Shown piece by piece: positions 1,722 to 60,975 of a stretch of DNA of 64,000 bases. The first letter of the stretch is position 1. The number at the start of each line of letters is the position of its first letter. Under the pieces are notes generated by a model. That model made no database searches and was not told the origin of the DNA. It saw only the letters and a list, made by a program, of their open reading frames with translations. A program made the position numbers and the translations under genes. Origin of the DNA: Arthrobacter citreus (GTDB lineage Bacteria; Bacillota; Bacilli; Bacillales; Bacillaceae_G); assembly GCA_013200995.1 (NCBI GenBank), contig CP053689.1, positions 124,001 to 188,000 on the forward strand, written 5' to 3'.

Positions 1722-1860
1722 GGAATGTAAAGACAGGAAAATCTTTAGAGAGAGAACTTTCTCTCGAAGAGAAATATAAAAACTTCAAGCACAAAACAAA
1801 CTTTTAATAGTAGAGAATGAATTGTTAAAAAAATCGAAATGATGGAAATGGACCACACAG
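1722..1860 (+). pseudogene. IS3-type orfA remnant
   Basis: Three-frame reading gives pieces such as ELSLEEKYKN and VENELLKKS, typical of the end of an IS3/IS150-family OrfA (helix-turn-helix plus leucine zipper), broken by stops. The remnant runs directly into a cassette-type linker and B half-site at 1855-1902, so an insertion sequence was probably deleted up to the end of the array. Weak assignment from a short stretch. Confidence 0.35.
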
Positions 1861-1902
1861 CCGATCTTGTTGTTCAACTAAAGTATGCGTTAGCTTAATA
1901 AG
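1855..1902. repeat. array 1 left-end B half-site with truncated terminator linker
   Basis: B half-site with arms TTCAACTAA and TTAGCTTAATAAG around AGTATGCG. The preceding ACAGCCGATCTTGTTG is the tail of the AGCCGATC terminator family also seen at 15950, 53064 and 59889. No A half-site remains on the left. This is the transcription-distal end of array 1. Confidence 0.75.
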
Positions 1903-1989
1903 ACTTTATCTTTTATGATGGTGTTTTTATAGATGACTTCTTTTATTGAGTTATTGATATAATTGGAATGAGTTGGAACCTAGATTACA

Positions 1990-2889
1990 TTAATCATTTT
2001 TAATATTTAGATAAAATTCACCTAAATCTGCATTATCCGGTAAACCAGATACTTGTCCATCTCCTAGTTCAATGATTACCCATTCTCCATTTTCCACTTT
2101 AGCGATGTCCATAGTGAAGAAATTGCTTTTAATATCTTGTGCAATTTCTAATAGTGAGTCTAAGTTAGGTAAAATTTTGCCGTAATCCCCCTCATCCCAA
2201 TAATGAAGCATACTAATAGGTTTTCCATTAAGAAAGAATACACGAAACTCTTTAGAAAGAGGCATTTGACTTTGATGATGTTTCGTTAAGAATTCTAAGT
2301 TTAAAAACTCTCTAAAAACAATTCCTTCGTTTAATTCGGAACCTTGCAATTCAATAAATTTTTTTACAGTTTTCTCGACATTCTCTTTGTCACTTGCTTT
2401 AGGAATAAAACAAGCTTCTACCCAATCGTGCTTTCTGGACTTCACGAAGTCTTTAATAATAATAGGATTGTTTCCAAAGGTTTGAACTTTATCAAAAATT
2501 TTATTAAAATTTTCATCAATATCTTCTTTAAGAATCCAAGTTGTTTTGGGTGTTTTGTCTCTTATAACAGAATAGGATTCAGGTAAATAGTGACAATGTT
2601 TATATTCTTCTGGTGTATTTACTAAATATATATTTTTCTTTGTTAGTGCATTGTATAACATTTTATAATAATTAGGTGTTAACATCCAACCACGATAAAT
2701 AGCTTTTTCGGGTTCCTCACTAATACTAACTTTATGTATAGATTTTTTACTATCATCAAAATATAATAAATTCTCTAATGCAATAAGTTCTGTTTTAATT
2801 CCCATATTTTGAGCTACTAAATATTCTTTTTTGTAATCAAAATCTACTTGATTTCTATCTAAGGGATCACTACAAAATAAAATTCTCAA
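1990..2889 (-). CDS. ATP-grasp (R2K clade) protein, 299 aa
   Basis: Probable ATP-dependent carboxylate-amine ligase fold. The C-terminal half shows an ATP-grasp signature: PIIIKDFVKSRKH (nucleotide-binding strand), EGIVFREF, KEFRVFFLNG and the metal-binding end ELGDGQVSGLP, as in the R2K clade families. No ligation substrate can be read from the sequence. I chose the TTG start at 2889 because a strong AAAGGAGGGG ribosome binding site lies just upstream. An ATG at 2955 would add 22 residues overlapping the A half-site and has no ribosome binding site. First intact gene at the left end of array 1, transcribed leftwards, with site B at 1871-1902 downstream. Confidence 0.75.
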   Translation of the reverse strand: MRILFCSDPLDRNQVDFDYKKEYLVAQNMGIKTELIALENLLYFDDSKKSIHKVSISEEPEKAIYRGWMLTPNYYKMLYNALTKKNIYLVNTPEEYKHCHYLPESYSVIRDKTPKTTWILKEDIDENFNKIFDKVQTFGNNPIIIKDFVKSRKHDWVEACFIPKASDKENVEKTVKKFIELQGSELNEGIVFREFLNLEFLTKHHQSQMPLSKEFRVFFLNGKPISMLHYWDEGDYGKILPNLDSLLEIAQDIKSNFFTMDIAKVENGEWVIIELGDGQVSGLPDNADLGEFYLNIKND

Positions 2890-2947
2890 TTTTTCCCCTC
2901 CTTTATTTACATATTTGAAATGTATTCGATGCCAATTAAGTAATTCC

Positions 2948-3002
2948 TTGTTCAACTAATCTGCCAAATACTTAAATAAATAAAGCAGCCATTGACTGCT
3001 TC
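2948..3002. repeat. A half-site plus terminator, B half missing
   Basis: A half-site with left arm TTCAACTAATCTGCC followed by a diverged right part (TACTTAAATAAATAAAG), then a hairpin that on the minus strand reads AGCAG, loop, CTGCT followed by T-rich sequence, hence a terminator. No B half-site follows; the truncated SleB-like gene runs straight into the hairpin. Confidence 0.6.
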
Positions 3003-3187
3003 TGATATGCACCTATTGCTTGTCGTACTGTATCTACATCTTTAAAGTCCGAACAGGTTACTAAGGCACGGTTAACGACTACACAACCTACTGCTAACAT
3101 ACATTGCTTGCCTTCTCCTTCTGCTTCGGCTCGTATTAATCTTGCTAATACGTCTACGTCTTTTTCGTTATACTTTATTCGGCTCAT
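2972..3187 (-). pseudogene. truncated SleB/CwlJ-type cell-wall hydrolase, 71 aa
   Basis: The N-terminal part of a Hydrolase_2 (SleB/CwlJ) domain is clear: VDVLARLIRAEAEGEG contains the conserved glutamate, followed by AVGCVVVNRAL. Family members have about 130 residues in this domain; here only about 60 remain before AYQKQSMAALFI. Those last residues are encoded by the terminator hairpin of the cassette site, so the 3' part was lost at the site. The start is good, with AAGGAGG seven bases before the ATG. Intact relatives degrade spore cortex or cell wall; this fragment is very unlikely to be active. Confidence 0.7.
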
Positions 3188-3288
3188 AAAAAAACCTCCT
3201 TACCTCATAATATGAAGGAAAAGAGAATACTATTTTTGTAATTGAACTTCAGATAATTTAAATAGAGCGAAAAAATGATATTGCAACT

Positions 3289-3326
3289 CGTGTTCTTCAA
3301 ATAAAGCATCAGTTTGTATTACATTA
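3289..3326. repeat. degenerate B half-site
   Basis: Reads TTCAAATAAAGCATCAG then TTTGTATTACATTA, preceded by AACTCGTG, the tail of the CATATAAGCAG-type terminator family. The left arm and centre are recognisable, the right arm has drifted. Confidence 0.55.
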
Positions 3327-3329
3327 TTT

Positions 3330-3629
3330 TCATCTAACCTTCAAATTAATAAATACTCCTCCAGCTATTACAGAAAATACAAGAATACCCAACCACATAA
3401 AAATCTGTGTTGTATTTTGAGAAAAAGGAAGAAATATCGATTCAATTCCTATGATAAAGAAAAATATTCCGTAGTATCGAGCTAATTTACTCTTTTCCTG
3501 CACTTGGCCTTCTTGGTACCCAGCAATTAGAAACAACATTTTCTTCTGCCAAATAAAAAAACTAAGACCACAAAAAAATAGAAATAATAAAGCTGCGATG
3601 GTATACCTAATATACTCTGGCAAGAACAT
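3330..3629 (-). CDS. DUF3784-like two-helix membrane protein, 99 aa
   Basis: Two hydrophobic segments (about residues 8-27 and 52-70) and probably a third at the C-terminus. The stretch KKMLFLIAGYQEG is typical of DUF3784 proteins of Bacillaceae, whose function is unknown. I start at the ATG at 3629, which has AGAAGGAGTG upstream; an upstream in-frame extension to 3689 lacks a ribosome binding site. It lies between B 3289-3326 and A 3699-3730 as a leftward cassette. Confidence 0.65.
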   Translation of the reverse strand: MFLPEYIRYTIAALLFLFFCGLSFFIWQKKMLFLIAGYQEGQVQEKSKLARYYGIFFFIIGIESIFLPFSQNTTQIFMWLGILVFSVIAGGVFINLKVR

Positions 3630-3698
3630 CACTCCTTCTCTAAATACAAGTAATTCAACACATAATTTTATTCTATTTAAAATTATCAAATCCTTTCC

Positions 3699-3730
3699 TT
3701 ATTGAACTCAACTGCCATTTAGTAAAATAA
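3699..3730. repeat. A half-site upstream of the array recombinase
   Basis: CTTATTGAACTCAACTGCC followed by ATTTAGTAAAATAA. The right arm is diverged and no terminator or B follows. It lies between the leftward cassettes on its left and the divergently transcribed recombinase that starts at 3827, the place where an integron would carry attI. Confidence 0.6.
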
Positions 3731-3826
3731 TATTTGATCCTATTTCTAGTTTTAACACTCCTTTTTTAATCATGAATTTCGTCAATAATGCCTGGTAAAA
3801 CACCAACTAATGGAGGGGATTTATTA

Positions 3827-4666
3827 ATGTTATTATCAAATGCATGGAAAAGTTACTATAATGATAAGTTAATTGAAGGATACTCATCAACTACACTAAA
3901 AGCATATAGAATACAGTCAACACTCTTAATTAAACACTTCGATGATATTGAGATTGCTCAAATCACTACTGATGCTTTGAAAGAGTATCTTGTATTTGTT
4001 GGGGAAAAATTAAAACCTGCAAGTTTAGCACATCGAGTTCGTTTTATAAAATCCCTTTTCCGTTGGGCTCATGAAGAGGGTGAAATTCAAAGTAACCCTT
4101 CCTCAAAGCTTAAAGAACCAAAAGCTGGGACCAGAATTCCTAAATTCTTAACTGTTAAGGAAATTGAACTCCTTCGTGAAGCCTGCAATACTCCAAGAGA
4201 ACATGCAATAATTGAGTTTATGTATTCATCAGGATGCCGTATCGGCGAAATTGTCTTAATAAATAAAAATGATATAAACTGGACAAATCACTCGGTAATA
4301 GTACGAGGAAAAGGTGATAAAGAAAGAGAAGTATACTTCAATATTCGAGCTGAAATTTGGTTATTTAGATACTTAAACGAACGACATGATGAAGATCCTG
4401 CATTATTTGTAACCGAAAGAGCTCCGCGTCGGTTAAGTATTGCTCAAACGCGTCATATGATTAAGCAGGTTTCTTTACATGCAGAGTTTAACAAAAAGAT
4501 TTCACCTCACCAATTAAGGCATAGTTACGCAACTCATTTAATGGATAACGGGGCTCCAATTGAAGTAATCCAAAGTTTATTAGGTCACGAAAAAAGTGAA
4601 ACAACACGAATATATGCGAAACTAAGTGGAAAGCAACGTCAAGATCAATATTGTAAATACTTTTAA
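3827..4666 (+). CDS. XerC/D-like tyrosine recombinase inside the array, 279 aa
   Basis: Complete tyrosine recombinase. The SAM-like N-terminal domain covers residues 1-95. The catalytic residues are Arg in SSGCRIGEIV, Lys in GKGDKEREVY, His-Arg in HQLRHSYATHL, His in GHEKSETT and Tyr in TRIYAKL. The start at 3827 has GGAGGGGATT eight bases upstream. The length is that of XerC/D; I do not see the extra IntI-specific segment before the HxxR box. It is the only gene of its kind within the arrays, opposite in direction to most cassettes, bounded by an A half-site (3699-3730) and a B half-site (4705-4737), so it may itself be a cassette. It is the best candidate for the enzyme that moves the array's cassettes, but this is inference. 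Confidence 0.85.
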   Translation: MLLSNAWKSYYNDKLIEGYSSTTLKAYRIQSTLLIKHFDDIEIAQITTDALKEYLVFVGEKLKPASLAHRVRFIKSLFRWAHEEGEIQSNPSSKLKEPKAGTRIPKFLTVKEIELLREACNTPREHAIIEFMYSSGCRIGEIVLINKNDINWTNHSVIVRGKGDKEREVYFNIRAEIWLFRYLNERHDEDPALFVTERAPRRLSIAQTRHMIKQVSLHAEFNKKISPHQLRHSYATHLMDNGAPIEVIQSLLGHEKSETTRIYAKLSGKQRQDQYCKYF

Positions 4667-4670
4667 AAAA

Positions 4671-4694
4671 GAGGACCCGTAACGGTCCTTTTAA
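4671..4694 (+). terminator. terminator of the array recombinase
   Basis: GGACC / GGTCC stem with loop CGTAA followed by TTTTAAT, directly after the stop codon at 4666. Confidence 0.75.
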
Positions 4695-4704
4695 TAATCG
4701 TTCT

Positions 4705-4737
4705 TATAAAACTAATGCATCAGTTAGTTCAATAAGG
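4705..4737. repeat. B half-site
   Basis: AAACTAATGCATCAG then TTAGTTCAATAAGG. Near-consensus B directly 3' of the minus-strand gene at 4740. Confidence 0.8.
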
Positions 4738-4739
4738 TT

Positions 4740-5185
4740 TTATTCTGGAGTATAATCTACCCAACCCTTTTCAGAATGAACTTGAACTATTTTTCCATTC
4801 GTTGTAAATTCAACTAGTTTTCCGTCCACTTTATACTTAACTAATGTGAATGTAAACTTGGCTGAATCGTATTCAGGGTGGTTTTCCATATATGCAACAT
4901 AGGGTGACATCGAATCTATTCCGTCGTGGATTTCATCATACAACCATTCGGTTTGTCTCGTATTGTATTTTTTAACTAAAAGTACTTCGTTATAAGTGTG
5001 ATGTATCGCCTCTACTTTGGTTAACGTTTTAGTGATGGTTGACACTTTCTTAGTTTTTTGAGCACTCATTTTACTATAAGTATTTTGTATTTTAGGAAAG
5101 TTTGCAGCTAGAATTATAACAACAATACCTAACAATAGTATAAAACCTTTAAAACCTTTCCTTTTTCCCTTTCAACTTCAGCCAT
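4740..5185 (-). pseudogene. membrane-anchored small protein, apparent frameshift near the start
   Basis: An ATG at 5185 with TAGGAGTG upstream opens MAEVEREKGK, but that frame stops after 18 codons. The following frame continues as KGFKGFILLLG, one transmembrane helix, then about 110 soluble residues ending GWVDYTPE. A one-base change in the purine run at 5154-5172 (GGGAAAAAGGAAAGG on the minus strand) would join them into one protein of about 147 aa. It is either a recent frameshift, a sequencing error in a homopolymer, or slippage. The soluble part matches no family I recognise. Confidence 0.55.
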
Positions 5186-5278
5186 AATTATGTACACTCC
5201 TAACAAGATTAGTCCTAATATATAGATATTAAAGGTTTAGGGTGAATAATCCTTTTTACACATAATATTCAATGCCTC

Positions 5279-5350
5279 TTGTTCAACTAAACTGCCATTT
5301 TGTTGAATAAGAAAAAGCGATCCTCTATTGAAGAATCGCATCAGTACAAA
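5279..5350. repeat. cassette site: A, terminator, degenerate B
   Basis: A is consensus (TTCAACTAAACTGCC, TTGTTGAATAA). The terminator on the minus strand has stem GCGAT / ATCGC followed by TTTTTC. B is reduced to CGCATCAGTAC. Confidence 0.75.
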
Positions 5351-5388
5351 ATAAAGGCACAACTTATTTTGGTTTCCAACTTATTCTA

Positions 5389-5886
5389 TTATTTTAAAAT
5401 TAATTTCTCAGTGTTTTTGAATTGTTTATAGTCTTTAATAACTTCCTTATGAAATAATGTCCAGAATTCATTCGTGTTTTGAGGTATTTCGTCTAATTTA
5501 AAAAAGATTGCATCATTAGTTTCTTCAGTAGTTTTAACCAAAGAACCATTCCATTCATTAACTAAGAACAAGAATTCAAATAATTGGTACTCATCACCAA
5601 ACTTATTTTTCTGACCATATTTCGCATTAGAATAGATAGAAATCACTTTTGCAGAAAGCACATCTAAACCTGTTTCCTCTTTTACTTCTCGAACTAAACA
5701 CTCAAAAATTGATTCATCTAATTCGATAGAACCAGCAGGCAAACTCCATTTCCCCTCGCCTTTTCTCTTAATAAAGAGGATGTTTCCTTTCTGGTCTTCT
5801 ATAATTGCCCTAATTGAAGGAACTATTAACTTTTGATTACCTACAAGATTTCTAAGCTTCCCGATATAAGATTCTTCCCAATTCAT
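5389..5886 (-). CDS. NUDIX hydrolase, 165 aa
   Basis: Hydrolyses a nucleoside-diphosphate-linked compound; the substrate cannot be read. The NUDIX box is complete, from GSIELDESIFE to REVKEETGL (about residues 52-74), giving the metal-binding glutamates. I start at the ATG at 5886 because of the GTGGGGA ribosome binding site; the longer ORF reading adds eight residues without support. It is a single-gene leftward cassette. One of four NUDIX genes in the arrays and not close to the duplicated pair at 7998/51391. Confidence 0.85.
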   Translation of the reverse strand: MNWEESYIGKLRNLVGNQKLIVPSIRAIIEDQKGNILFIKRKGEGKWSLPAGSIELDESIFECLVREVKEETGLDVLSAKVISIYSNAKYGQKNKFGDEYQLFEFLFLVNEWNGSLVKTTEETNDAIFFKLDEIPQNTNEFWTLFHKEVIKDYKQFKNTEKLILK

Positions 5887-6015
5887 TGTTAATCCCCACT
5901 TTATTATCATTATCGTTAATAACTAAGGACTTAGTTCACGGATGCTAATTTAACTAACTTTGATTGCCCCCATTACTCTATTAAAAGTTTATTTCTCCAG
6001 TTATTTTCTTAGACC

Positions 6016-6120
6016 TTGTTCAACTAATCTGCCATTTTGTTGAATAAGGGAATGAAAAAAGACCACAATTTGTGATCTTACTTTTTCTTATGCAACTAAC
6101 GCATCAGTTAGTTGAATAAG
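6016..6120. repeat. complete cassette site (A, terminator, B)
   Basis: A: TTCAACTAATCTGCC and TTGTTGAATAAG. Terminator (minus strand): AGATCACAAA / TTGTGGTCT then TTTTTT, a family also used at 52478-52505. B: CAACTAACGCATCAG and TTAGTTGAATAAG, a perfect outer inverted repeat. Confidence 0.9.
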
Positions 6121-6125
6121 AACAG

Positions 6126-6524
6126 TTATTCGTTTTCGTAACAACTAATTGATAAATGTACACCTAACTCTCCTATTAACTTAAGAGCATCTGGTTCTAA
6201 AGCAAAATTGCATTGTTCTTTATAAAATACACCTATAACAAAATCAATATCTTCTACTCCACATTTTTTAATATCATCTATAAAATCATATAATGTCTTT
6301 GCAACCCAATAAATCTTATTATTATAATCCAAATACACTATTCCTTCAGGGGGACATAGAACACCTGACCCATATTTTACAGGTTGTTCCTTAAAAGGAC
6401 CTTTTGTTCCAATTTCTCCTACTTCTTTTTTCTGAATCAGTTTTACTCCAGTTAATTCTTCTACCTTTTTTGGAGAAAATTTGTCTCCAGATAAATGACA
6501 TCTAACATCTAATTCTTCTATCAT
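6126..6524 (-). CDS. DUF4279 protein, 132 aa
   Basis: The start MIEELDVRCHLSGDKFSPKKVEELTG is typical of DUF4279, a small domain often found near polymorphic toxins as a possible immunity protein. Middle GVEDIDFVIGVFY and end VHLSISCYE fit the family pattern. Single-gene leftward cassette. The immunity role is only a family-level association; no toxin gene is visible in the window. Confidence 0.65.
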   Translation of the reverse strand: MIEELDVRCHLSGDKFSPKKVEELTGVKLIQKKEVGEIGTKGPFKEQPVKYGSGVLCPPEGIVYLDYNNKIYWVAKTLYDFIDDIKKCGVEDIDFVIGVFYKEQCNFALEPDALKLIGELGVHLSISCYENE

Positions 6525-6612
6525 CTATATCCTCACTTGTTTGATTATTTTACTAAATTAATTTGTTTTTAAATTAATTATATCTAAAAGTAAAAAAACC
6601 TTCATCAATTCT

Positions 6613-6689
6613 AACAAATAAGTAAATAAATAAAGCCGCATTAGCGACTCGAGAACTTATTGAACTAACGCATCAGTTAGTTTAATAAG
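6613..6689. repeat. cassette site with eroded A
   Basis: A is reduced to ACAAATAAGTAAATAAATAAAG. The hairpin GCCGCATTAGCGACTCG is a diverged CATATAAGCAG-type linker. B is TTGAACTAACGCATCAG and TTAGTTTAATAAG. Confidence 0.65.
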
Positions 6690-6918
6690 TTGGCGAATAA
6701 ATATAATCAGTATCAGTATCAATAACAAAATCGATTTCGATTTCATCATCGAAAGGCAACTGTTCAAAACGGTGTAATCGACAAAAAACATCTGGTAGAT
6801 TCCTAATGTCATTTACCATACTTAGTGCCTGTAAATATTTTTGTTTCAATTCTTTTTTAGAACATTTCCTACCTGTAAGTAGTGCTTTTGTAAAGTATCC
6901 GTCAATTTCAATGTTCAT
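6682..6918 (-). CDS. hypothetical acidic protein, 78 aa
   Basis: Not recognised. The C-terminal third is acidic (DDEIEIDFVIDTDTDYIY). The stop codon lies inside the right arm of the preceding B half-site, so the last codons come from the repeat. The ribosome binding site is weak; ATG 6918 is preferred over an in-frame GTG at 6927. Leftward cassette. Confidence 0.5.
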   Translation of the reverse strand: MNIEIDGYFTKALLTGRKCSKKELKQKYLQALSMVNDIRNLPDVFCRLHRFEQLPFDDEIEIDFVIDTDTDYIYSPTY

Positions 6919-6965
6919 AATAGTCACGACTGGTTGCTAACCAATCCATATAGCTTAAATTTTTA

Positions 6966-6999
6966 TTATGTAACTAAAGCATCAGTTAGTTCAATAAGG
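6966..6999. repeat. B half-site without A
   Basis: TAACTAAAGCATCAG then TTAGTTCAATAAGG. No A or terminator between it and the gene on its left. Confidence 0.75.
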
Positions 7000-7007
7000 T
7001 TTAGTCT

Positions 7008-7346
7008 CTATAAAGTAAGTTCTTCAAACCTACAGCTGGAGAATCTCACTCTATTATCGAAAAATATTGTATCTGGAGCATTAGTAGTAGAAATCGCATC
7101 CTCACCATACCATTCCCATTTATTGACAAAATTTTTAAGTATTAACTCCGCTTTTGAAATATTTATTGGACTAACTGTTTCAATATCAAAAACTATTTTA
7201 TACCAGCCATCAAACTTCCAATACGCTTCTTTTAAAAATAGCTTAAAAGAAGACATATATTTGTCATTTAATTTTAAGCATTCATTCATTATTAATAAAG
7301 CCTCTTCTTCGTTGTTACATTCTATAAATAATGTAAGTCTGATCAT
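7008..7346 (-). CDS. hypothetical protein, 112 aa
   Basis: Soluble, no recognisable domain. It begins MIRLTLFIECNNEEEA, with an alternating strand-helix pattern that resembles small ACT- or immunity-like folds, but I cannot assign one. The ATG at 7346 has AGGGAGG eight bases upstream. Single-gene leftward cassette. Confidence 0.6.
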   Translation of the reverse strand: MIRLTLFIECNNEEEALLIMNECLKLNDKYMSSFKLFLKEAYWKFDGWYKIVFDIETVSPINISKAELILKNFVNKWEWYGEDAISTTNAPDTIFFDNRVRFSSCRFEELTL

Positions 7347-7389
7347 TTTTCCTCCCTAAAACCCTTTAGTGATAATTGTATTTAAATAT

Positions 7390-7540
7390 AATTCTACAAT
7401 ACTGCCGTTTACTTTAATAAGAAAAAAGCTACCGAAGCAGCTTAAGTTTGTTCAACTATTGCATGCGTTAGCCATCCATGAATCCTCAGATTCACAACAG
7501 TGAATGGAAGTTTATATCGTACTCCCATGGTAGTTGAATA
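7390..7540. repeat. cassette site with a 66-bp insert in B
   Basis: A: TACAATACTGCCGTTTAC and TTTAATAAG. Terminator (minus strand): AAGCTGCTTCGGTAGCTT then TTTT. B starts TTCAACTATTGCATGCGTTAG, then about 66 bp with a perfect hairpin TGAATC CTCA GATTCA, then GTAGTTGAATAGAG. The same insert interrupts the B at 29240-29332. Confidence 0.7.
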
Positions 7541-7547
7541 GAGATTC

Positions 7548-7898
7548 CTATTTTTTTAACCCACTGTTTACCATGAATTCTTCATATGCTTCATCTATTT
7601 TCTTTTTGCAAATTTCTTTCCACAAGTTTTTAAGATCATTAATTTTTTCTTGACTAACATTTTCGGGCTCCATGTCTCCACCGAAACCAATATGTGATTC
7701 TAAATCCGAAACTAAACCATTTTCATCCGCAAATGCAATTTCATTTGGAGCATATGTTACACCTCGGTTTGCACAATTATTTTCGATACAGTGAAAACCC
7801 GGTTTATGAACTTTTTTACAAAACTCTGGGACCACCTTATTTTCTTCATGTAAACAATATATCTCTAATAGAACATGGTTATAAGAAATAATAATCAT
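7548..7898 (-). CDS. hypothetical protein with cysteines, 116 aa
   Basis: Not recognised. Four cysteines lie in the middle (FCKKVHKPGFHC, NNCANRG), compatible with a small metal or disulfide site, followed by an acidic helical C-terminus. GAAAGGTG directly precedes the ATG, so spacing is tight and the true start may be a few codons later. Leftward cassette. Confidence 0.5.
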   Translation of the reverse strand: MIIISYNHVLLEIYCLHEENKVVPEFCKKVHKPGFHCIENNCANRGVTYAPNEIAFADENGLVSDLESHIGFGGDMEPENVSQEKINDLKNLWKEICKKKIDEAYEEFMVNSGLKK

Positions 7899-7939
7899 CA
7901 CCTTTCACAAAAGAAATGAGCTTTCAATATCTATACATG

Positions 7940-7972
7940 ATCTTCAACTAAGGCATGCGTTAGTTCAAGATT
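7940..7972. repeat. B half-site beside NUDIX copy 1
   Basis: TTCAACTAAGGCAT then GCGTTAGTTCAAG. From GCGTTAG rightwards the sequence is the same as at 51350 onwards; leftwards it differs. This marks the left breakpoint of the duplicated NUDIX cassette. Confidence 0.8.
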
Positions 7973-7997
7973 ATGGATAATTAATTTGGTGGTGTTT

Positions 7998-8468
7998 TTA
8001 TTTAAATACACCTTTTCTTTTGGAAAGCCAATCTTCTAAGGCATCGTTGTGTTGTTTTGTGAATAATTTCGGTATTTGGTCTATTGGGAAGTATTTTAAA
8101 TCTAAAGTCTCAATACCATCTGCGGTAAGTTCCCCATCAATTGACTTGCATTGAAAAAAATGAGTGATAGTCTGAGCTTTATCTCCGTTCGGAAACTCAC
8201 CAGAATATTTAGAGTAGACACCTATAAGATGTTCGACCTCAACATTTAATCCAGTCTCCTCAAGTATTTCTCGTTTAGCGGTTTCTTCAAGAGATTCTCC
8301 AAGTTCCATAGCACCACCTGGAAAACCCCACTCATTTCTATCTCCCCGTTTTTGTAAAAGAATTTCATTTCGTTCGTTATAAACAATACCTCCAGCAAAA
8401 TTAAGAAATATTAAATCGTGCCCTACTTTTCCCCGAATATAACAAATGTAGTCCTTATTTGTAGTCAT
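7998..8468 (-). CDS. NUDIX hydrolase (copy 1 of a duplicated cassette), 156 aa
   Basis: Complete NUDIX box from GGAMELGESLEE to REILEETGL. It hydrolyses a nucleoside-diphosphate-linked compound of unknown identity. The start at 8468 has GAGAGGG upstream. The protein is identical to the product of 51391-51861 except for two residues (Ser versus Pro in CKSIDG, Asn versus Asp in KQHNDA), and the DNA is nearly identical over the whole cassette, including about 80 bp upstream. Identity ends inside the flanking B and A half-sites. A third, more diverged relative lies at 58721. This points to a recent cassette copy or transfer rather than ancient paralogy. Confidence 0.9.
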   Translation of the reverse strand: MTTNKDYICYIRGKVGHDLIFLNFAGGIVYNERNEILLQKRGDRNEWGFPGGAMELGESLEETAKREILEETGLNVEVEHLIGVYSKYSGEFPNGDKAQTITHFFQCKSIDGELTADGIETLDLKYFPIDQIPKLFTKQHNDALEDWLSKRKGVFK

Positions 8469-8550
8469 AAAATTCCCTCTCATTTATATATAAAATACAA
8501 ATTAATTATATATAAAACAAAAAAAAATGGTAATAAAAATGATGTTATTC

Positions 8551-8643
8551 CTTATGCAACTAATCTGCCATTTTGTTGAATAAAAAATGGACTGCCGAAG
8601 CAGCCCAACGCTAACTAACTAATGCATCAGTTAGTTGTATAAG
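8551..8643. repeat. complete cassette site (A, terminator, B), 93 bp
   Basis: A: CAACTAATCTGCCATTT and TGTTGAATAA. Terminator (minus strand): GGGCTGCTTCGGCAGTCC then ATTTTTT. B: CTAACTAATGCATCAG and TTAGTTGTATAAG. The same terminator and the same CCCAACGCTAACTAACT linker recur at 12643. Confidence 0.92.
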
Positions 8644-8671
8644 AACATTGTTATTTATATGTACTTTAGAA

Positions 8672-9115: not shown

Positions 9116-9158
9116 AGCTACCACCTTAAATATTTTCTCATAGAATATATTCTATTTC

Positions 9159-10022: not shown

Positions 10023-10025
10023 AAA

Positions 10026-51363: not shown

Positions 51364-51390
51364 TTATGGATAATTAATTTGGTGGTGTTT

Positions 51391-53529: not shown

Positions 53530-53530
53530 C

Positions 53531-54253: not shown

Positions 54254-54654
54254 TTTTATCGACCTTTCTCAGAAAAAAACTTGGTTTGGAACACAATAAT
54301 AGCAATTAACCAATATTCGACCCAAACTTCTCGGAAAATACATTTTTTATGAATATCGTTTTCAAGTCTAGGTTACATAAATACCCTTCTCAGCAATAAA
54401 AAAATTTGGTGAATATTAACATTCTAATAGGGGAAAATAACCATATTAATTATCTACCCAACGTATATTCCACGTTATAAGTTCTGCTCTTTTAATGTAA
54501 TTGTTATATGCTAGTAAAAATAACCCGAATCGGGATTATTCAAATTATATTTTGTAAGTCATTATAACTCTAAATAGCACTTTTAAAATAGAATTTTTTG
54601 AAAAAAAAATAATTAATCTAGAAGTAAAATTTGAAGTCAAAAAGTAGGAATTAT
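54254..54654. other. intergenic upstream of gerAB-like gene
   Basis: 400 bp without an ORF. Contains a CCCGA / TCGGG hairpin at 54522-54535 and presumably the forespore promoter of the 54655 gene, which I cannot place with confidence. Confidence 0.35.
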
Positions 54655-55788
54655 ATGAATCGTAAATTAAATATAAGTGGCTTTCAATTTTTTTGCACTA
54701 TTTTTTTGTTTATTATCGGCATTGCACCACCAGGAATAATTTACACTAGGGCCAATCAAGATGCGTGGATTAGTTTATTAATAGCGGTTTTTATTGCTTG
54801 TTTATTATTTGCTCTGTATATTAAGTTATATATAATATTTCCTAATTTACAATTTACACAATATATTCAAGTTATTTTAGGTAAATATGTAGGCAAACTA
54901 ATAGCATTAGTTTATATTTTGTATTTTATTTATATGTCAGCACTTCATTTACGTGAAAGTGCAGCTATACTAAGAATTACTCTTTATTCTTCTTCATCTC
55001 TAATTTCAATAGTAATAATAATGATATTATTAGCCATTTATGCACTTAATAAAGGATTTGAAACATTCGCCCGTGCAAACGAATTTATTTTTATGATAAC
55101 AGTAATTATCATTATTTTTTTTATAGGACTCGAAGTCATTTCTAATTTAATAGATATTAATAATTTAAGACCAGTTTTAGAAAATGGATGGAAACCTGTC
55201 CTAAAAGGAGCTTTTCCTATCACAGTCACAAATCCATTTGGTGAAATATTCGCATTTACTATGATCATGCCATTTTTAAATAAACAAGATACTGCAATAA
55301 AGGTAGGTATACCCGCATTCTTAATTTCAGGGGTTACATTAATTTTATTTGCAATATTAAATATTGCAATCTTAGGTGTTACAGCAGTAAATAGAACAAT
55401 TTTTCCACTTCTAACTTCAGTTAGTTATATCAATGTTTCTGATTTTATCCAAAGAATGGATACTTTTATTGTGATGATTACAGTATGTGGTTATTATCTA
55501 AAAATTGTGATCTATTTTTATTGCGCAGTATCTGGAGCTGCTGATTTATTTAATGTAAAGAAAAGTAAACAGTTAGTCTATCCAATTGCAATTATTATTG
55601 TAACCACTACATTATGGTTGGCTTCTAATTTTTTTGAACTACAAAATGAAGGTAGCAATATAGTCACATATTTACTACACATTCCACTTCAAATTATTAT
55701 TCCGCTTAGTTTATTGCTAATTCTCCTATTACAAGGGAAAGTTAACGGGAATAAAGGCTTGAAACAAAAAGGCTCTAGTTTTTACTAG
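54655..55788 (+). CDS. gerAB-like: GerAB-type spore germination permease, 377 aa
   Basis: Ten to eleven membrane helices of the APC superfamily (endospore germination permease). It recognises germinants in the inner spore membrane together with GerA and GerC partners. Start GFQFFCTIFLFIIGIAPPG carries the typical helix 1 motif; middle EFIFMITVIIIIFFIGLEV. ATG 54655 has AAAGTAGGA upstream. No A or C partner follows; the only GerA-type piece here is the fragment at 42988. So it is an orphan, perhaps working with chromosomal partners. It lies within array 2 on the + strand. Confidence 0.88.
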   Translation: MNRKLNISGFQFFCTIFLFIIGIAPPGIIYTRANQDAWISLLIAVFIACLLFALYIKLYIIFPNLQFTQYIQVILGKYVGKLIALVYILYFIYMSALHLRESAAILRITLYSSSSLISIVIIMILLAIYALNKGFETFARANEFIFMITVIIIIFFIGLEVISNLIDINNLRPVLENGWKPVLKGAFPITVTNPFGEIFAFTMIMPFLNKQDTAIKVGIPAFLISGVTLILFAILNIAILGVTAVNRTIFPLLTSVSYINVSDFIQRMDTFIVMITVCGYYLKIVIYFYCAVSGAADLFNVKKSKQLVYPIAIIIVTTTLWLASNFFELQNEGSNIVTYLLHIPLQIIIPLSLLLILLLQGKVNGNKGLKQKGSSFY

Positions 55789-55796
55789 AGCCACTA
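55771..55796 (+). terminator. terminator overlapping the end of gerAB-like gene
   Basis: GGCTCTAG, loop, CTAGAGCC. No long T-run follows (ACTATTATAC). Confidence 0.6.
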
Positions 55797-56043
55797 TTAT
55801 ACTTTCAAATCCGTATTCGTACCTTCGGTTGCAATTCTTCCCATCAATTCAGCTAACCTTACATTATAGATTAACGGAGTTGGAAGTCTTTACATTTTGG
55901 AGTGTCGTTCTAAGCGGAATTGAAGCATATCAAAAAAAGGATAGAATCGCGGCTTATATAATGTTAAGAATAGGTTTCTTAATAATATTTGATTTTGTTT
56001 TGTTAAAGTTTTGGTTTCATAAATATCAACTTAATCTCAATCT
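55797..56043. other. possible remnant of a membrane protein gene
   Basis: A + strand frame contains TFWSVVLSGIEAYQKKDR and RIGFLIIFDFVLLKFW, one helix, ending in the B half-site. No ribosome binding site; a decayed cassette gene is possible. Confidence 0.3.
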
Positions 56044-56127
56044 AATGCAACTAACGCATCAGTTCGTATTATAAGGTCATCCAGTTTTATTTACTGGTTG
56101 ACCATTTTTATTATGGTCTTATGATTA

Positions 56128-56285
56128 AAGTAGTCGGGGCAGAACGAAGCATCAGTGGGGCTTAGACCCCGTCAACTAAACAGTTCACCCCCTACTTATA
56201 GAAACATGATTTGGGCTGGTGGGGACAAAGATCCCGCATAACAAGCGAACCGATGACACTATAAGGGAGTACTAGGGGAACCGAT
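56128..56285 (+). ncRNA. candidate bridge RNA of the IS110 element
   Basis: Two guide-bearing loops are visible. Target loop: GCATCAGT (56149-56156) equals the left flank of the insertion, stem GGGG CTTAGA CCCC, then CAACTAAAC (56173-56181), the reverse complement of the right flank GTTTAGTTG. Donor loop: GCTGGT (56215-56220) equals the right IS end, stem GGGA / TCCC, then CGAAC (56246-56250), complementary to the left IS start GTTCG. Four matching guides around core GT make this a strong candidate. Transcript limits are estimated. Confidence 0.75.
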
Positions 56286-56315
56286 AAATTTAATAGCTTT
56301 AGGAGGAGATAGTTT

Positions 56316-57551
56316 ATGAATCCAGTAGTTGGTCTGGATGTCGCAAAAGGAGAAAGTCAAATACAAGCTTTTTTAGATAGAAAGTCTCCTTTTAAAAGAA
56401 GTTTTAAGATTTCACATACAGTTGAAGGCTTTGAGCAGCTACTTCAATTCTTAAAGAGTATTGAAGAAACAGCGAACACAAAACCAGTATTAATAATGGA
56501 ATCAACAGGGCATTACCATTCACCTGTAATGCAGTTCTTAGATAACTTAAATTATATTTATATCGTTATTAATCCATTAATCTCTTATAGAGCTAAAAGT
56601 TCAAGTTTAAGAAAGGTAAAGACTGATGTCATCGATGCGTATCACCTCTGCGAGCTGTATTACAAAGAAGAGTTAGAGCCACATAAAAAACGTGGTGCAC
56701 AGTTACTAAACCTGCGAAATTTAACCAGACAGCACGATCATTTAACAGGTATTAGTTCTCAGGCAAAACTACATTTTTTAGCGATTCTAGATCAAGTGTT
56801 TCCTGAATATCGAGGTGTATTTGGAGATTTGTATTCTAATGTTTCACTCTTAACTTTACTAGAGTTTCCTTCATCTGAAGCTGTGTTACAAGCAGGTGAA
56901 GATCAACTAGCTAAACGAATCACATCTTTATTTACTAGTCGTTCTAAACAATGGGCAAACGTAAGAGCTAAGCTTTTAATCTCTGCGGCTGAGAAAAATC
57001 CGTTTCAAGTAAATCTTTATAGAAGCCTTACTATTTCGCTTGAGATGCATATTAAAATGGTTCTTCAATACAAAGAACATCTATCCAATTTAAAAGCAGA
57101 GATAGATGTCCTCGTAAAAGAAATTGAAGAATATACTATCATCCAATCGATTCCAGGTATCGGAAAAAAAATCGCGGCAACGATTATCTCTGAAATTGGT
57201 GAAATTGATCGGTTTGATAATCCTAAAAAACTTGTGGCTTTCACTGGTGTTGACCCGAGTGTCTTTGAATCTGGTAAATTCACAGCTAGTAGAAACCGTA
57301 TTACAAAACGTGGTTCTAGTCGATTGAGACATGCGTTATTTATGGCTGTTCGGTGTGCAATTCGTGATAATCGTAAGAGTAAGACAACAGACGAAATCAT
57401 CCCACGAAATAAGCGAATGCGACAATTTTATGATAAAAAGCGTGAAGAAGGAAAACCATTTAGAGTAACAGTTATTGCTTGTGTAAACAAACTATTACAT
57501 TGGATTTATGCCCTGTTAAAAAGCAAAACGACTTTCCAAGATCTAGCTTAA
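56316..57551 (+). CDS. IS110-family DEDD transposase, 411 aa
   Basis: RuvC-like N-terminal domain: VGLDVAKGESQIQAF (first Asp), MESTGHYHSP (Glu), TDVIDAYHLCELY (two Asp). The C-terminal Tnp domain: QSIPGIGKKIAATIISEIG and the serine-bearing SGKFTASRNRITKRGSSRLR. Full length and intact; AGGAGGAG before the ATG. Works with the bridge RNA encoded upstream. Confidence 0.95.
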   Translation: MNPVVGLDVAKGESQIQAFLDRKSPFKRSFKISHTVEGFEQLLQFLKSIEETANTKPVLIMESTGHYHSPVMQFLDNLNYIYIVINPLISYRAKSSSLRKVKTDVIDAYHLCELYYKEELEPHKKRGAQLLNLRNLTRQHDHLTGISSQAKLHFLAILDQVFPEYRGVFGDLYSNVSLLTLLEFPSSEAVLQAGEDQLAKRITSLFTSRSKQWANVRAKLLISAAEKNPFQVNLYRSLTISLEMHIKMVLQYKEHLSNLKAEIDVLVKEIEEYTIIQSIPGIGKKIAATIISEIGEIDRFDNPKKLVAFTGVDPSVFESGKFTASRNRITKRGSSRLRHALFMAVRCAIRDNRKSKTTDEIIPRNKRMRQFYDKKREEGKPFRVTVIACVNKLLHWIYALLKSKTTFQDLA

Positions 57552-57697
57552 AATCTGAACTAACTTCAACTACCATAATCTTCCAATTTTTGAATAAGTG
57601 GAAGATTATTTGGCATGTCAAAAATAGTATAACATGGGTCACTAAATTTTTTTATTGAAAATTATTGACAAACTATTAGCTGGTTTAGTTGCATAAG

Positions 57698-57859
57698 ATT
57701 TTATCAATTAAGTTTAAAAAATGATAAATGTTTTAATATAAGCCTCAGTTAGATTTTAGTGTTGTTTTATCGGCAAATAAAGGATGGATTCGCCTAACGG
57801 ATTTCAATTTCGTGTTTGAAAATGGCTAAGAAGCATTACAAATCACAATGATAAATGCA
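57698..57859. other. intergenic after the IS110 element
   Basis: About 160 bp to the terminator of the ICMT-like gene, no ORF. Confidence 0.3.
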
Positions 57860-57892
57860 AAAAAATTCACTTCAGAAATGGTGTGAATTTAA
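57860..57892 (-). terminator. terminator of the ICMT-like gene
   Basis: Minus strand: AAATTCACAC, loop, GTGAATTTTTTT. Confidence 0.8.
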
Positions 57893-57915
57893 TTATTAAA
57901 TATAAGTTATAATAT

Positions 57916-58524
57916 TTACCAAATAAAAGGAATTAATCTCCATGTGTTAATGCAATATTCGTCAAACTCTTGCCCAAACCTCGTCCTCAATGCCTTTTCT
58001 TCAACTATAATTCTTATTCCAAAACACACAGTAAAAAGAATCAATGATAGTATTACAGCGGTTAAATTTCGCAGAGAAAGAGCAACTCCGATAGTAAAAA
58101 GCAATAAACCTGTATACGAAGGGTTTCTTAGGAATTTATACATACCGTGTTTAATTAACTTCTGGTTAACTGTGGTTTGCACTACAACGGTAAAGGCACG
58201 CTTCAGAGTCAGTACAGACACACAACGAAGCACAACTCCTCCTAACATAAAAAATACTCCAAAGAAAAAAATGAAATTTGGAAGATGCAGTCTTATAACT
58301 GATGAGGACATACTATCATTTGATAGAAAGAAACTTAATTGAAGGCTTCCAAACAAACCGATAATTGCAATAAAAATCGAACCTACGTCCGATGATTTTC
58401 TTTTATTGAAAGAACGCAATCTATTAATATCTGCATATATTTTAATTATGACCTCTGATATTAGAAAAAAAATGAAAAGTAGGGTAAATACATAAAATTC
58501 AACCAGAGATGAAAAGTATGACAT
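57916..58524 (-). CDS. isoprenylcysteine methyltransferase-like membrane protein, 202 aa
   Basis: Five helices and the ICMT/PEMT cofactor region near the C-terminus: KHGMYKFLRNPSYTGLLL (R-N/H-P-x-Y) and EEKALRTRFGQEFDEYC. Such proteins methylate a lipid or an isoprenoid using SAM; the substrate here is unknown. TGGAGG before ATG 58524. Confidence 0.82.
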   Translation of the reverse strand: MSYFSSLVEFYVFTLLFIFFLISEVIIKIYADINRLRSFNKRKSSDVGSIFIAIIGLFGSLQLSFFLSNDSMSSSVIRLHLPNFIFFFGVFFMLGGVVLRCVSVLTLKRAFTVVVQTTVNQKLIKHGMYKFLRNPSYTGLLLFTIGVALSLRNLTAVILSLILFTVCFGIRIIVEEKALRTRFGQEFDEYCINTWRLIPFIW

Positions 58525-58621
58525 TCATTTTGCCTCCATAAAAAAAGATTTTCACAATAAATATTTCGAATTAGGTAATATTCTTCACAGAAATAGAAAT
58601 TCCTTCTTTTAATAAAGAAAT

Positions 58622-58700
58622 CTTATTATACTAAACTACCATTTAGCTTTAAAAAAAATCGACTGATTAGTCGATCATGTTATTAGTAATTCATATTTAT
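58622..58700. repeat. cassette site with worn B
   Basis: A: TATACTAAACTACC and TAGCTTTAAAA. Terminator (minus strand): GATCGACTAATCAGTCGA then TTTTTTT, AGCCGATC-like family. B is reduced to TTAGTAATTCATATTTATAA. Confidence 0.7.
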
Positions 58701-58720
58701 AACAGAACAGTTGGTATCAA

Positions 58721-59191
58721 TTAACGACATACTCCAATTTTTCCTGATAGCCAATCCTCGTATGCGTCTTGATGTTGTTGCACGAATAACTCTGGTAGCT
58801 CATCTTTTGGAAAGTACCTTAACTCCAGAGTTTCTTTTCCATCTATCGTTAATTCACCATCAAAAGGTTTACATTTAAAAAAGAAAGTAATGGTTTGAGC
58901 CTTATCGCCACTTGAATAAAGGTGGACATATTTTGTATAAACACCAATTAGATGTTCTACCTTTACTTTTAATCCAGTTTCTTCATATATTTCACGAATG
59001 GCAGATTCTTCAGCAGATTCCCCTAGTTCCATTGCTCCCCCAGGAAATCCCCATGAATCGCTATCGCCTCTTTTTTGCAATAACACCTCGTTATGCTCAT
59101 TACATACAATTCCTCCAGCAAAATTTAAGAAAATTAAATCCTGTCCAACCTTTTCTCTAATCCACTGGATATAATTTTGTTTTCCATTCAT
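58721..59191 (-). CDS. NUDIX hydrolase (diverged relative of the duplicated pair), 156 aa
   Basis: Box GGAMELGESAEESAIR to EIYEETGL complete. About the same length and start pattern (QDLIFLNFAGGIV) as the proteins of 7998 and 51391, with many substitutions, so an older copy. AAGGATGAG before ATG 59191. The family as a whole seems to be preferred cargo of these arrays. Confidence 0.87.
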   Translation of the reverse strand: MNGKQNYIQWIREKVGQDLIFLNFAGGIVCNEHNEVLLQKRGDSDSWGFPGGAMELGESAEESAIREIYEETGLKVKVEHLIGVYTKYVHLYSSGDKAQTITFFFKCKPFDGELTIDGKETLELRYFPKDELPELFVQQHQDAYEDWLSGKIGVCR

Positions 59192-59248
59192 TAAACTCAT
59201 CCTTACTTTTTTCTTTATTTATTCAATTTGACAGTTAAATAGTCCTTT

Positions 59249-59340
59249 TCTTAATCAACTATACCGCTATTTTTTTAATAAAGAACAAGCCCCTTTTATG
59301 ACTTTTGATATACAACTATCGCATCAGTTAGTTGTATAAG
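59249..59340. repeat. complete cassette site (A, linker, B), 92 bp
   Basis: A: ATCAACTATACCGCTATT and TTTTAATAAAG. Linker: ACAAGCCCCTTTTATG, a relative of the 15277 linker. B: CAACTATCGCATCAG and TTAGTTGTATAAG. Confidence 0.8.
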
Positions 59341-59342
59341 CT

Positions 59343-59789
59343 TTATACAATTAGTCCCTGATTTCCACCATAGTAATCAACAATTTCTTTTAGTTCTGCT
59401 AACGTAGAAGTCAAATAGCTCTGTTCACTTTCAAATTCAAATTGTAAAAAATTCTCCTCTGATGGATACTCTTGAAAACTGCCAAGTATTGTAAATTGAC
59501 CAAAGTCTGCAAATTCGAGCACTAATTTAAGCTCCGATTCAGTATTCGGAAAATTAATTATACCTTTTAATTCCTTGTAGCATTTAAGCAGTTGTTCGTA
59601 GAATTCATATATTTGACCTGTTGAAAACCAAAGTTCGGCATCTTTAACGTAATAGTTTTTACTTTTAATTTCAATTTTCCCCTTAACATCATAGCCTCCC
59701 AAATAACTTGTTCTTTTTGGAAAACCTAAAACCTCAGTTAGCTCAATTCTTATATATCCTTGTTTGCCTCCAAGTTCAAATGCATACAC
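59343..59789 (-). CDS. WapI-type immunity protein, 148 aa
   Basis: Begins MYAFELGGKQGYIRIELTEV, LGFPKRTSYLGGYDVKGKI and ends SYLTSTLAELKEIVDYYGG, the pattern of WapI family immunity proteins that block the CdiA-like toxin WapA. No wapA toxin gene in the window, so it is an orphan immunity gene. GTG start with GAGAGGGATG. Confidence 0.68.
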   Translation of the reverse strand: MYAFELGGKQGYIRIELTEVLGFPKRTSYLGGYDVKGKIEIKSKNYYVKDAELWFSTGQIYEFYEQLLKCYKELKGIINFPNTESELKLVLEFADFGQFTILGSFQEYPSEENFLQFEFESEQSYLTSTLAELKEIVDYYGGNQGLIV

Positions 59790-59857
59790 TTAATCATCCC
59801 TCTCCATTAATTGCCTTTAGTTCAACCTTATCAAAATAAGAGTTATTTTAACAGATT

Positions 59858-59953
59858 CTTATACAACTAAATTGCCATTTAGTCACATAAAAAAAAATCG
59901 ACTAAACAGCCGATCTTGTTGTTCAACTAAAGCATTTATTTAGTTGCATAAGG
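59858..59953. repeat. complete cassette site (A, terminator, B), 96 bp
   Basis: A: CAACTAAATTGCCATTT and AGTCACATAA. Terminator: GATCGGCTGTTTAGTCGA then TTTTTTT, AGCCGATC family. B: TTCAACTAAAGCATTTAT and TTAGTTGCATAAGG. The B arm supplies the stop of the hydrolase gene. Confidence 0.88.
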
Positions 59954-60842
59954 TGGATTGATTTTGAATAAATAAACTGAGCTCTTCACTAAATAAATTA
60001 TTTTCCTCAAGGAATGGATAGTGATTACTCTTATTAAAAATTATCAACTTAGAACTTGGGATCAATTCCTTCATTTCAATAGAATATTCTAATGGGCATT
60101 GCACATCGTTCTTGCCACACATAATTAAAGTAGGTGCAGTGACAAGTGGTAATTTTCTAGTTACATCAAATATTTTCAACTCTCGATTAAAATAGTTCAT
60201 TCTTTTGCCTGACATTTTCTTAGAAATATTTAAATTAAACATTTCTTCATACCTTTCAGGCTCGTATAAGGATAACTTTGTTCTTTCAACACCTAACTCT
60301 TTTCTAGTTTCCACAGTTAAATCACTACGTTTTAACATTTCATTTAATTCTTGCATCCGTGCGTAATGAGGATGTTCCCTATTATAGATACAATGGGGAG
60401 AAAATGTCATATACTCTCTTGCTGCGGCTCCAACAATAATATTATAGCGTAAACTATTTGAGAAATAGACACCATAAATAATCCCTAACATCCCACCAGT
60501 TGAGTGACCTGCAAATCCCCATTGTTTTAAATCTAATGCTTCACGAATTGCTTCTAAGTCAAATATAGTTTCAATCATACTAAGTTGATAAGACTCTGAA
60601 GCTGCTTCGGAACAACCTGTTTCTCTCAAGTTTACTAAAAAAACTTTATGGTTCTTTGTAAACGTTTCTGCAAAATAATCGCCTGTTTCATTAAATTCAG
60701 AATATAGGTGTGTTACACAAAGTGGTTCACCTTCCCCTTTTATAAACACCTCGAAATTTCCACGAGTTGTACTAATTAGATTTCTACTCCATTTACTCAT
60801 ATAATCATCCATTCCATTTAATTTACTATTCAACCATTTCAA
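59940..60842 (-). CDS. alpha/beta hydrolase, 300 aa (start uncertain)
   Basis: Alpha/beta hydrolase fold with all three catalytic positions: Ser in GFAGHSTGGMLG (G-x-S-x-G), Asp in CGKNDVQCP and His in KSNHYPFLEE. Likely an esterase, lactonase or peptidase; the substrate is unknown. Several start options exist (60842, 60812, 60800), with no strong ribosome binding site. Its last residues and stop come from the B half-site. It is the first gene of array 2 in the direction of transcription. Confidence 0.82.
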   Translation of the reverse strand: MKWLNSKLNGMDDYMSKWSRNLISTTRGNFEVFIKGEGEPLCVTHLYSEFNETGDYFAETFTKNHKVFLVNLRETGCSEAASESYQLSMIETIFDLEAIREALDLKQWGFAGHSTGGMLGIIYGVYFSNSLRYNIIVGAAAREYMTFSPHCIYNREHPHYARMQELNEMLKRSDLTVETRKELGVERTKLSLYEPERYEEMFNLNISKKMSGKRMNYFNRELKIFDVTRKLPLVTAPTLIMCGKNDVQCPLEYSIEMKELIPSSKLIIFNKSNHYPFLEENNLFSEELSLFIQNQSTLCN

Positions 60843-60917
60843 TAATATACATTCAAAAACCTTTAGATTTAAAAAATCGTCACAAAAGGTTCAAAAAAGC
60901 ACGAAATTAGATAATTC

Positions 60918-60975
60918 CTTATTCAACTAAACTGCCATTTAGTTTAAGTGAATCCCTTCACAAACTTAAATCCAA
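60918..60975. repeat. array 2 right boundary: lone A half-site with conserved extension
   Basis: A: TTCAACTAAACTGCCATTTA followed by GTTTAAGTGAATCCCTTCAC and AAACTTAAATCC. The same extension, with differences, follows the last A of array 1 (31059-31115). No B follows. It is the attI-like position of array 2. Confidence 0.65.

Follow-up and report, generated by a model that had tools for sequence, protein, structure and literature searches.

The DNA analysed here is a window of 64,000 nucleotides (bases 124001-188000) from a 250-kb contig, taken to be a plasmid, of a bacterium deposited as Arthrobacter citreus (CP053689.1), whose genome of 5.47 Mb was assembled in three contigs. Its nearest relatives include named genomes of Gottfriedia (G. 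acidiceleris, G. solisilvae and G. endophytica), and the genus is therefore called Gottfriedia here, in the order Bacillales. The window carries two arrays of small genes separated by short palindromic sites, and these arrays are the subject of this report. Array 1 (1869..31092) contains 41 sites on the plus strand, with genes mostly on the minus strand, and array 2 (50341..60951, minus strand) contains 16 sites. Array 1 also includes the gene for T2, a tyrosine recombinase of 292 amino acids resembling XerA and XerD (3788..4666, plus strand), which is a candidate for the enzyme that moves the cassettes. This gene is itself flanked by sites, one of type A lying 56 bp upstream (3698..3731, plus strand) and one of type B lying 39 bp downstream, past the T2 terminator (4703..4736, plus strand).

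Each site is 34 bp long and consists of a 13-bp arm, an 8-bp spacer and a second 13-bp arm. Our main comparison set comprises 78 loci (1.2 Mb) from the same genome and its relatives, picked around matches to the sites or to T2, and two weight matrices trained on these loci, one for type A and one for type B, were used to call sites. In site orientation, the matrices give A as approximately CTTATTCAACTAA-WCTGCCAT-TTWGTTSAATAAA, with a spacer close to NCTGCCAT, and B as approximately NTTNTTCAACTAA-NGCATSNG-TTAGTTGAATAAG. Read in the direction of the genes, the A spacer is ATGGCAG plus any base and the B spacer is CTGATGC or CGCATGC plus any base, with variants, while both arms fit one common consensus. 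The window contains 58 sites (24 A and 34 B, 56 of them on the plus strand), with 41 falling in 1855-31115, 16 in 50301-60975 and a single weak one at 42741. No sites were called in five base-shuffled windows, even at a lowered cut-off, and the arm motif CTTATTCAACTAA with at most two mismatches matches the window 79 times where 6.8 matches are expected. The repeats reported in the original prediction are therefore real, as are its two arrays. Its view that A and B are halves of one site has to be given up. They are two separate and complete exchange sites, each with a spacer of its own.

Sites of the two types are frequently paired around a hairpin terminator, which sits between an A site and the B site that follows it in a unit of about 57 bp. 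Of the 173 pairs of close-set sites in the 78 loci, 165 have both members on the same strand with A before B. Most of the eight exceptions combine A and B at the normal distance but on different strands, and here the near-palindromic B spacer could have blurred the strand call. The starts of A and B are separated by 57-60 bp in 122 of the 165 composites and by 46-48 bp in 27, giving total lengths of about 92 or about 80 bp, so that the length of 92-96 bp originally assigned to a full site agrees with the longer class. Fourteen composites were called with the matrices in the window, all on the plus strand (6015..6120, 7388..7480, 8551..8643, 12609..12706, 13559..13651, 14467..14557, 15245..15336, 15920..16013, 27780..27873, 28357..28449, 51944..52034, 52439..52546, 53035..53127 and 59250..59340), and all other sites of the window stand alone as A or B. 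Neighbouring sites at wider spacing lie on the same strand in 374 of 436 cases. Moreover, in 258 of 296 units the genes point against the orientation of the sites, which bears out the description of the arrays as small genes of mostly one direction.

The arrays also have a distinctive beginning. Only 17 arms, in 16 of the 714 sites from the 78 loci, are of the TTTAAGT type, and the pentamer TTCAC lies a few bases beyond 16 of these 17 arms, compared with 42 of 710 sites overall. Both arrays of the window open, in gene direction, with such an element, composed of an A core, a TTTAAGTGA arm and a TTCAC repeat (31059..31105 for array 1 and 60918..60964 for array 2, both plus strand). The same start element adjoins T2 in other genera and occurs 5' of dfrK. 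Judged from these sequences, the TTCAC start site is a natural candidate for an analogue of the integron site attI. At another locus (L115:6502-6535), a site has two arms of the kind found at array starts, with a TTCAC beside each, and may represent an empty attI-like site.

Sequence comparisons among arrays indicate that single units have moved. When the 78 loci were aligned with one another, 264 of 1354 alignment ends lay within sites, although sites account for 2.0% of the bases; these ends are not independent and include those of insertion sequence (IS) and intron copies. Among 311 non-redundant alignments, both ends lie within 12 bp of a site in 48, one end does so in 94 and neither in 169. 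For example, a cassette between two single B sites (6669..6987, minus strand) recurs at another place of the plasmid with 99.1% identity (L024) and in another species with about 92% (L096). Another cassette between two B sites (50345..50695, minus strand) and one between a B and an A site (6967..7405, minus strand) have copies in chromosomal arrays that are 98.0% (L013) and 98.2% (L017) identical, respectively. Within the window, a NUDIX cassette of array 1 (7955..8587, minus strand) is 98.7% identical to a second copy, found by sequence alignment, in array 2 (51348..51980, minus strand). Finally, a stretch of 520 bp is 100% identical in two chromosomal arrays in which its neighbours differ.

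To locate the switch between shared and unshared DNA, we retained junctions with one shared and one unshared flank and removed those of introns and IS110 elements, leaving 57. At these junctions the arm on the shared side is inherited, the other arm is no more alike than in random pairs, and homology changes within the spacer. The breakpoints of shared cassettes thus fall in the sites, whereas breakpoints outside them had been named in the original prediction as a sign of a plain repeat family; its central proposal, an array of mobile single-gene cassettes accompanied by a tyrosine recombinase, is upheld by these junctions and by the near-identical cassettes found elsewhere. Exchange at one defined edge of the spacer was considered and set aside, as the filtered junctions and the dfrD comparison described below place the switch only within the spacer. 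The spacer type is kept (A with A or B with B) at 22 of 23 cassette starts and 33 of 34 cassette ends, and B spacers are identical at 13 of 26 ends and four of seven starts, compared with 400 of 3000 random pairs.

Terminators follow a different course from genes. Genes adjoining a composite at two different places were counted as the same when their last or first 120 bp agreed to at least 80%. In these homologous pairs, the terminator following the gene is common to two of 14 and the terminator preceding it to two of nine, against 8% of random pairs; not all of the gene pairs are independent. Identical terminator units nevertheless recur, up to four times. Because terminators are mostly not inherited together with genes, gene and terminator appear to be separate units, each lying between unlike sites.

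The protein T2 retains the R, K, H-x-x-R, H and Y positions when aligned to XerA and XerD, which we take to be the recombinase motif. Its score against the XerA_Arch model is 213.8, just below the cut-off of 220, and it scores 200.6 against XerC (cut-off 335.15) and 203.5 against XerD (cut-off 329.6). Among solved structures, T2 matches XerA and XerD best, and IntI4 scores far lower. Copies of T2 occur in 13 of 19 genomes of the family, this one included, several of them being broken, and matches at E <=1e-45 are found in 97 of 397 genomes of the order, the weakest full-length ones being 32-44% identical. An A-like site precedes the gene by 31-75 bp in eight of the 13 Gottfriedia-family copies with a 5' end, including that of the window, and by 135 bp in another. 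Outside Gottfriedia, 18 of 27 T2 loci below 70% identity have an adjoining site, compared with none of 2700 shuffled flanks; the site lies within 160 bp before the gene in 12 loci and within 200 bp after it in 11, and a Sporosarcina plasmid has the order A-T2-B seen in the window. Outside the genus, T2 (E <=1e-60) is also present in 14 of 22 genomes with at least three sites of the B pattern, compared with 59 of the 363 genomes that have fewer (Fisher P 2e-6, uncorrected for kinship). T2 is thus the likely cassette enzyme, a role to which its association with the sites points.

The window contains two tyrosine recombinases, as the original prediction had noted. The other one, T1 (408..1574, plus strand), is probably outside the system, being a paralogue of a conserved recombinase of the genus of about 400 amino acids. 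No site was found near other T1-family copies in nine scanned loci of about 4 kb each, and T1 was rejected as the cassette enzyme on these two grounds. Its function is plausibly plasmid resolution.

The distribution of the sites is wide. The chromosome of the same genome has 132 sites in ten scanned stretches, chosen around matches to the A site, and seven other scanned plasmid stretches have nine. Across the order, 124 of 397 genomes have the B pattern with the spacer AGCACCCG, and none has the reversed control pattern. Co-oriented arrays with other spacers were recovered in Peribacillus-like genomes and in genomes G164, G275 and G355 by matrices retrained for each group, for which a shuffled control of one locus each gave no matches. 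Many 20-kb stretches hold at least 20 sites. Hence, arrays on a Bacillus-type plasmid, as originally proposed, are only part of the picture, because the cassette system is also chromosomal and reaches beyond Bacillaceae.

We consider it probable that these arrays form a gene-cassette platform based on double-stranded 34-bp sites. In the mechanism that we propose, the two inverted 13-bp arms of a site would probably each bind one recombinase subunit, and spacer bases 1-7 would form the overlap in which strands are exchanged, such that A recombines with A and B with B. The arrays have the order A-gene-B-terminator-A-gene-B, with some genes joined directly by a single B. Recombination between direct repeats of A or of B could release circles carrying gene plus terminator, terminator plus gene, or a gene alone, and these circles might re-enter at any matching site. 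Since each gene and each terminator lies between unlike sites, a double exchange could also swap a single gene or a single terminator, much as in recombinase-mediated cassette exchange. The exchange would be performed by the XerA-like T2 family, acting in trans on arrays that lack T2, and the array start, with its additional TTCAC repeat, would play the part of attI.

Several observations weigh against this interpretation. Arrays are present in three genomes in which no T2 match was found (G006, G010 and G015), T2 was likewise not found in eight of the 22 genomes outside the genus with at least three sites, and nine of the 27 distant T2 loci have no site at the cut-off. Many genomes with T2 have few sites by the single pattern used. 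Genome G001 has three T2 matches and none to the first A pattern, and yielded 40 sites in 20 kb after matrix retraining. The link between T2 and the sites is also partly trivial inside arrays, where every gene adjoins a site. The kept spacer type could also reflect carry-over of the spacer with the unit. In many pairs the bases of the spacer go with the unit on the left, and in dfrD with the one on the right, so that the exchange can be placed within the spacer but not at one base of it. The site 3' of dfrD has an atypical spacer, CGGAGAAC. Neither circles nor empty sites within one species were seen. Two Peribacillus plasmids that share a 45-kb stretch at 99.96% identity show no differing cassette. 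A scan for collinear alignments interrupted by one additional unit gave 27 cases; a site was touched in one of them, and in none had a single cassette been cleanly inserted.

An alternative is that the system is a true variant of the integron, in which A, terminator and B together form one attC site that folds as a single strand, and T2 is a relative of IntI that exchanges one strand. The layout of recombinase, special site and co-oriented cassettes would fit such a variant, as would the composite length of about 80 or 92 bp and the fact that group II introns and IS110 elements occupy the sites. The arms of A and B are also able to pair, the outer arms to 78%, but this complementarity, noted in the original prediction, arises because the arms have a common consensus. 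In 164 distinct composites, pairing of the outer arms is 0.782, compared with 0.786 when arms are re-dealt (z -0.75), and pairing of the inner arms is 0.661, which is below the re-dealt value of 0.674 (z -2.87); nor was covariation between arms detected within A or within B in these composites. This test measures covariation rather than folding itself, so that its outcome counts against selection of the attC type and not against folding as such. We accordingly rejected attC folding as a selected feature. The proposed fit of the arms to RYYYAAC and GTTRRRY holds for only three of 34 B arms and seven of 24 A arms in the window. Moreover, exchange takes place at B as well as at A, many sites are single and lack a hairpin unit, and the attachment site mostly does not travel with the gene in the manner of attC, as the low co-inheritance of following terminators indicates. 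Against the NCBIfam model of integron integrases, TIGR02249 (cut-off 265), T2 reaches 93.1 bits, and against NF011946 (PRK15417; cut-off 435) it reaches 54.7. It resembles XerA and XerD and not the IntI of the earlier proposal. An integron variant is therefore an unlikely explanation.

It is similarly improbable that the arrays are modules resembling those bounded by dif sites, moved by host XerC/XerD or by another recombinase, with T2 as a passenger. This possibility draws on the alternation of units between unlike, inversely related sites and on a rule of matching spacers, both of which appear in an account of Acinetobacter modules (PMC13141974), and it would explain arrays in genomes where T2 was not found. 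However, the arms here follow one consensus instead of dividing into a XerC and a XerD half, the spacer measures 8 bp, T2 relatives at 60-68% identity retain flanking sites in 18 of 27 loci, and sites and T2 co-occur. A simpler suggestion is that the sites are palindromes of the repetitive extragenic palindromic (REP) or terminator type, between which cassettes are moved by homologous recombination. The sites are indeed short, palindromic and intergenic, and they often stand beside hairpin terminators, but homologous recombination would spread the switch over the repeat, and it is confined to the spacer. The constant strand, order and spacing of the sites, their association with T2 and the presence of the same cassettes across species and replicons argue in the same direction, and we rejected REP-type repeats, which we regard as highly improbable, on strand, order, spacing and the spacer-confined switch.

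The sites themselves are targets of other elements. A group II intron in the window (10142..12083, minus strand, ends read from the sequence) interrupts the right arm of a B site behind its first base, and the eight listed intron copies, the others being at L013, L014, L016, L084, L093, L101 and L107, have this insertion point in common. The window copy is recognised by Rfam, and two intron families are the only Rfam matches in the window at gathering cut-offs. Related introns occur on plasmids of Peribacillus, Mesobacillus, Cytobacillus and Niallia, some of the matches including a few bases of the flanking site. An element of the IS110 family (56049..57691, plus strand) has one of its ends within a B site, in the left arm, and the five listed copies (window, L012, L018, L024 and L078) meet the left arm at one common point; the same end meets a site in Sporosarcina (L149:11013-12449). 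In integrons, relatives of such elements, the group IIC-attC introns and IS1111-attC elements, insert at fixed points of the attC sites. The insertion of an intron and an IS110-family element at fixed positions is the same here, with the difference that the target is a 34-bp site. In addition, an element of 1.67 kb begins at an A site in two species (L084 and L097, 82% identical) and has inverted ends resembling TTCGTTCAT, and is perhaps another site-specific parasite. Between the two arrays of the window, 32075-33886 encodes a translocase resembling FtsK, EssC and TraB, with scores under the curated cut-offs.

The contents of the cassettes are varied. From 258 non-redundant cassette proteins we scanned 140, drawn from the 150 longest after leaving out ten by hand (eight of the very longest, including an IS110-type reading frame, T2 and one more). 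Model matches include GNAT acetyltransferases, NUDIX proteins, alpha/beta hydrolases, SUKH immunity-type proteins, VanZ and one Vgb-type lyase, the last being a protein that matches streptogramin B lyase Vgb models with a best E of 1e-153. In PADLOC the same 140 proteins matched eight models, one in six members and the others once each; as the matches are mostly single, there is no strong defence theme among the cassettes.

Sites of this kind also surround trimethoprim resistance genes of other Firmicutes. Genes of the DfrD/G/K type are bounded by such sites in a Peribacillus-like array and, as dfrD, dfrG and dfrK, in the plasmids of Listeria, Enterococcus and Staphylococcus that we examined (L219:182-819; L246, L247, L248, L250, L251, L252 and L253). 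On both Staphylococcus plasmids fetched, pKKS627 and pKKS966, dfrK is enclosed by two sites that have the spacer CGGGGCAG, the first of which carries the attI-like TTCAC element. Both Enterococcus plasmids fetched have dfrG in the same context, with an A-type site before it and a B-type site (CGGGTGCG) after it. The plasmids pIP823 of L. monocytogenes and pDB2011 of L. innocua and a plasmid of E. faecalis (three of three fetched) share 589-635 identical bases around dfrD, running from the site before the gene, exactly from its spacer in two of three comparisons, to the site after it. The 5' flanks differ in all three plasmids, and on the 3' side those of E. faecalis and L. innocua have one extra common unit up to the next site. 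For a dfr-like gene of Lysinibacillus (L249), no intact site was found on either side in the stretch read. A Peribacillus-like genome (G287) has a unit between two A sites whose protein scores 345 bits, above the curated DfrD/DfrG/DfrK cut-off of 300. A phylogenetic study derives dfrDGK from Bacillus, and we noticed no mechanism for this step in the available part of that paper (PMC7725336). The sites around the three genes, together with the Peribacillus-like cassette of the DfrD/G/K type, suggest a concrete route for this origin.

The cassette platform appears to work like integrons and dif modules, and it fits the definition of neither. It resembles integrons in its arrays of varied, mostly same-direction small genes, in a tyrosine recombinase gene that reads away from the cassettes, in a distinct site at the array start, in contents such as GNAT, NUDIX and hydrolase proteins and in the degradation of some recombinase copies. 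In contrast to integrons, the recombinase is not IntI, the arms lack covariation, there are two spacer types, terminators are mostly not inherited with genes, and cassettes are bounded by two separate sites. The Cre/loxP and Flp/FRT systems have sites of 13-8-13 geometry, and recombinase-mediated cassette exchange uses unlike lox sites. The same geometry, with two distinct spacers flanking one gene, is found here, but in natural form, with dozens of sites per array and a bacterial XerA-like candidate enzyme. A dif site is 28 bp long. The dif modules of Acinetobacter have sites composed of a XerC arm, 6 bp and a XerD arm, whereas the present sites have 34 bp, like arms and an 8-bp spacer; different too are the XerA-like recombinase gene with its own flanking sites, the long co-oriented arrays, the attI-like start and the terminator units. 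Nevertheless, the Acinetobacter account (PMC13141974) describes features that are the same, namely Xer-type sites, alternating modules with unlike ends, spacers that match except that a mismatch is tolerated at one position of the spacer edge, and single modules that are mobile despite inversely oriented sites.

Among the matches listed from the open-access literature we found no earlier description of such a system, and the site sequences themselves did not occur in the open-access papers searched. Integrons are only very occasional in Firmicutes according to one survey, which reports one complete integron, in Limnochorda, and a few attC clusters without integrase (PMC9024848). On balance we favour, as rather likely, the view that the arrays constitute a third natural cassette platform across Bacillales, independent of integrons and dif modules and characterised by a XerA-like recombinase, two heterospecific lox-like sites, an attI-like start and separately mobile terminators, which together would amount to cassette exchange in nature, and that DfrD, DfrG and DfrK passed by this route from Bacillus-type arrays to staphylococcal, enterococcal and Listeria plasmids. 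Integron software would not be expected to detect the platform, because its enzyme and its sites differ. If this view is true, a large group of soil bacteria has a cassette platform of its own, and a natural two-site exchange system would be on offer.

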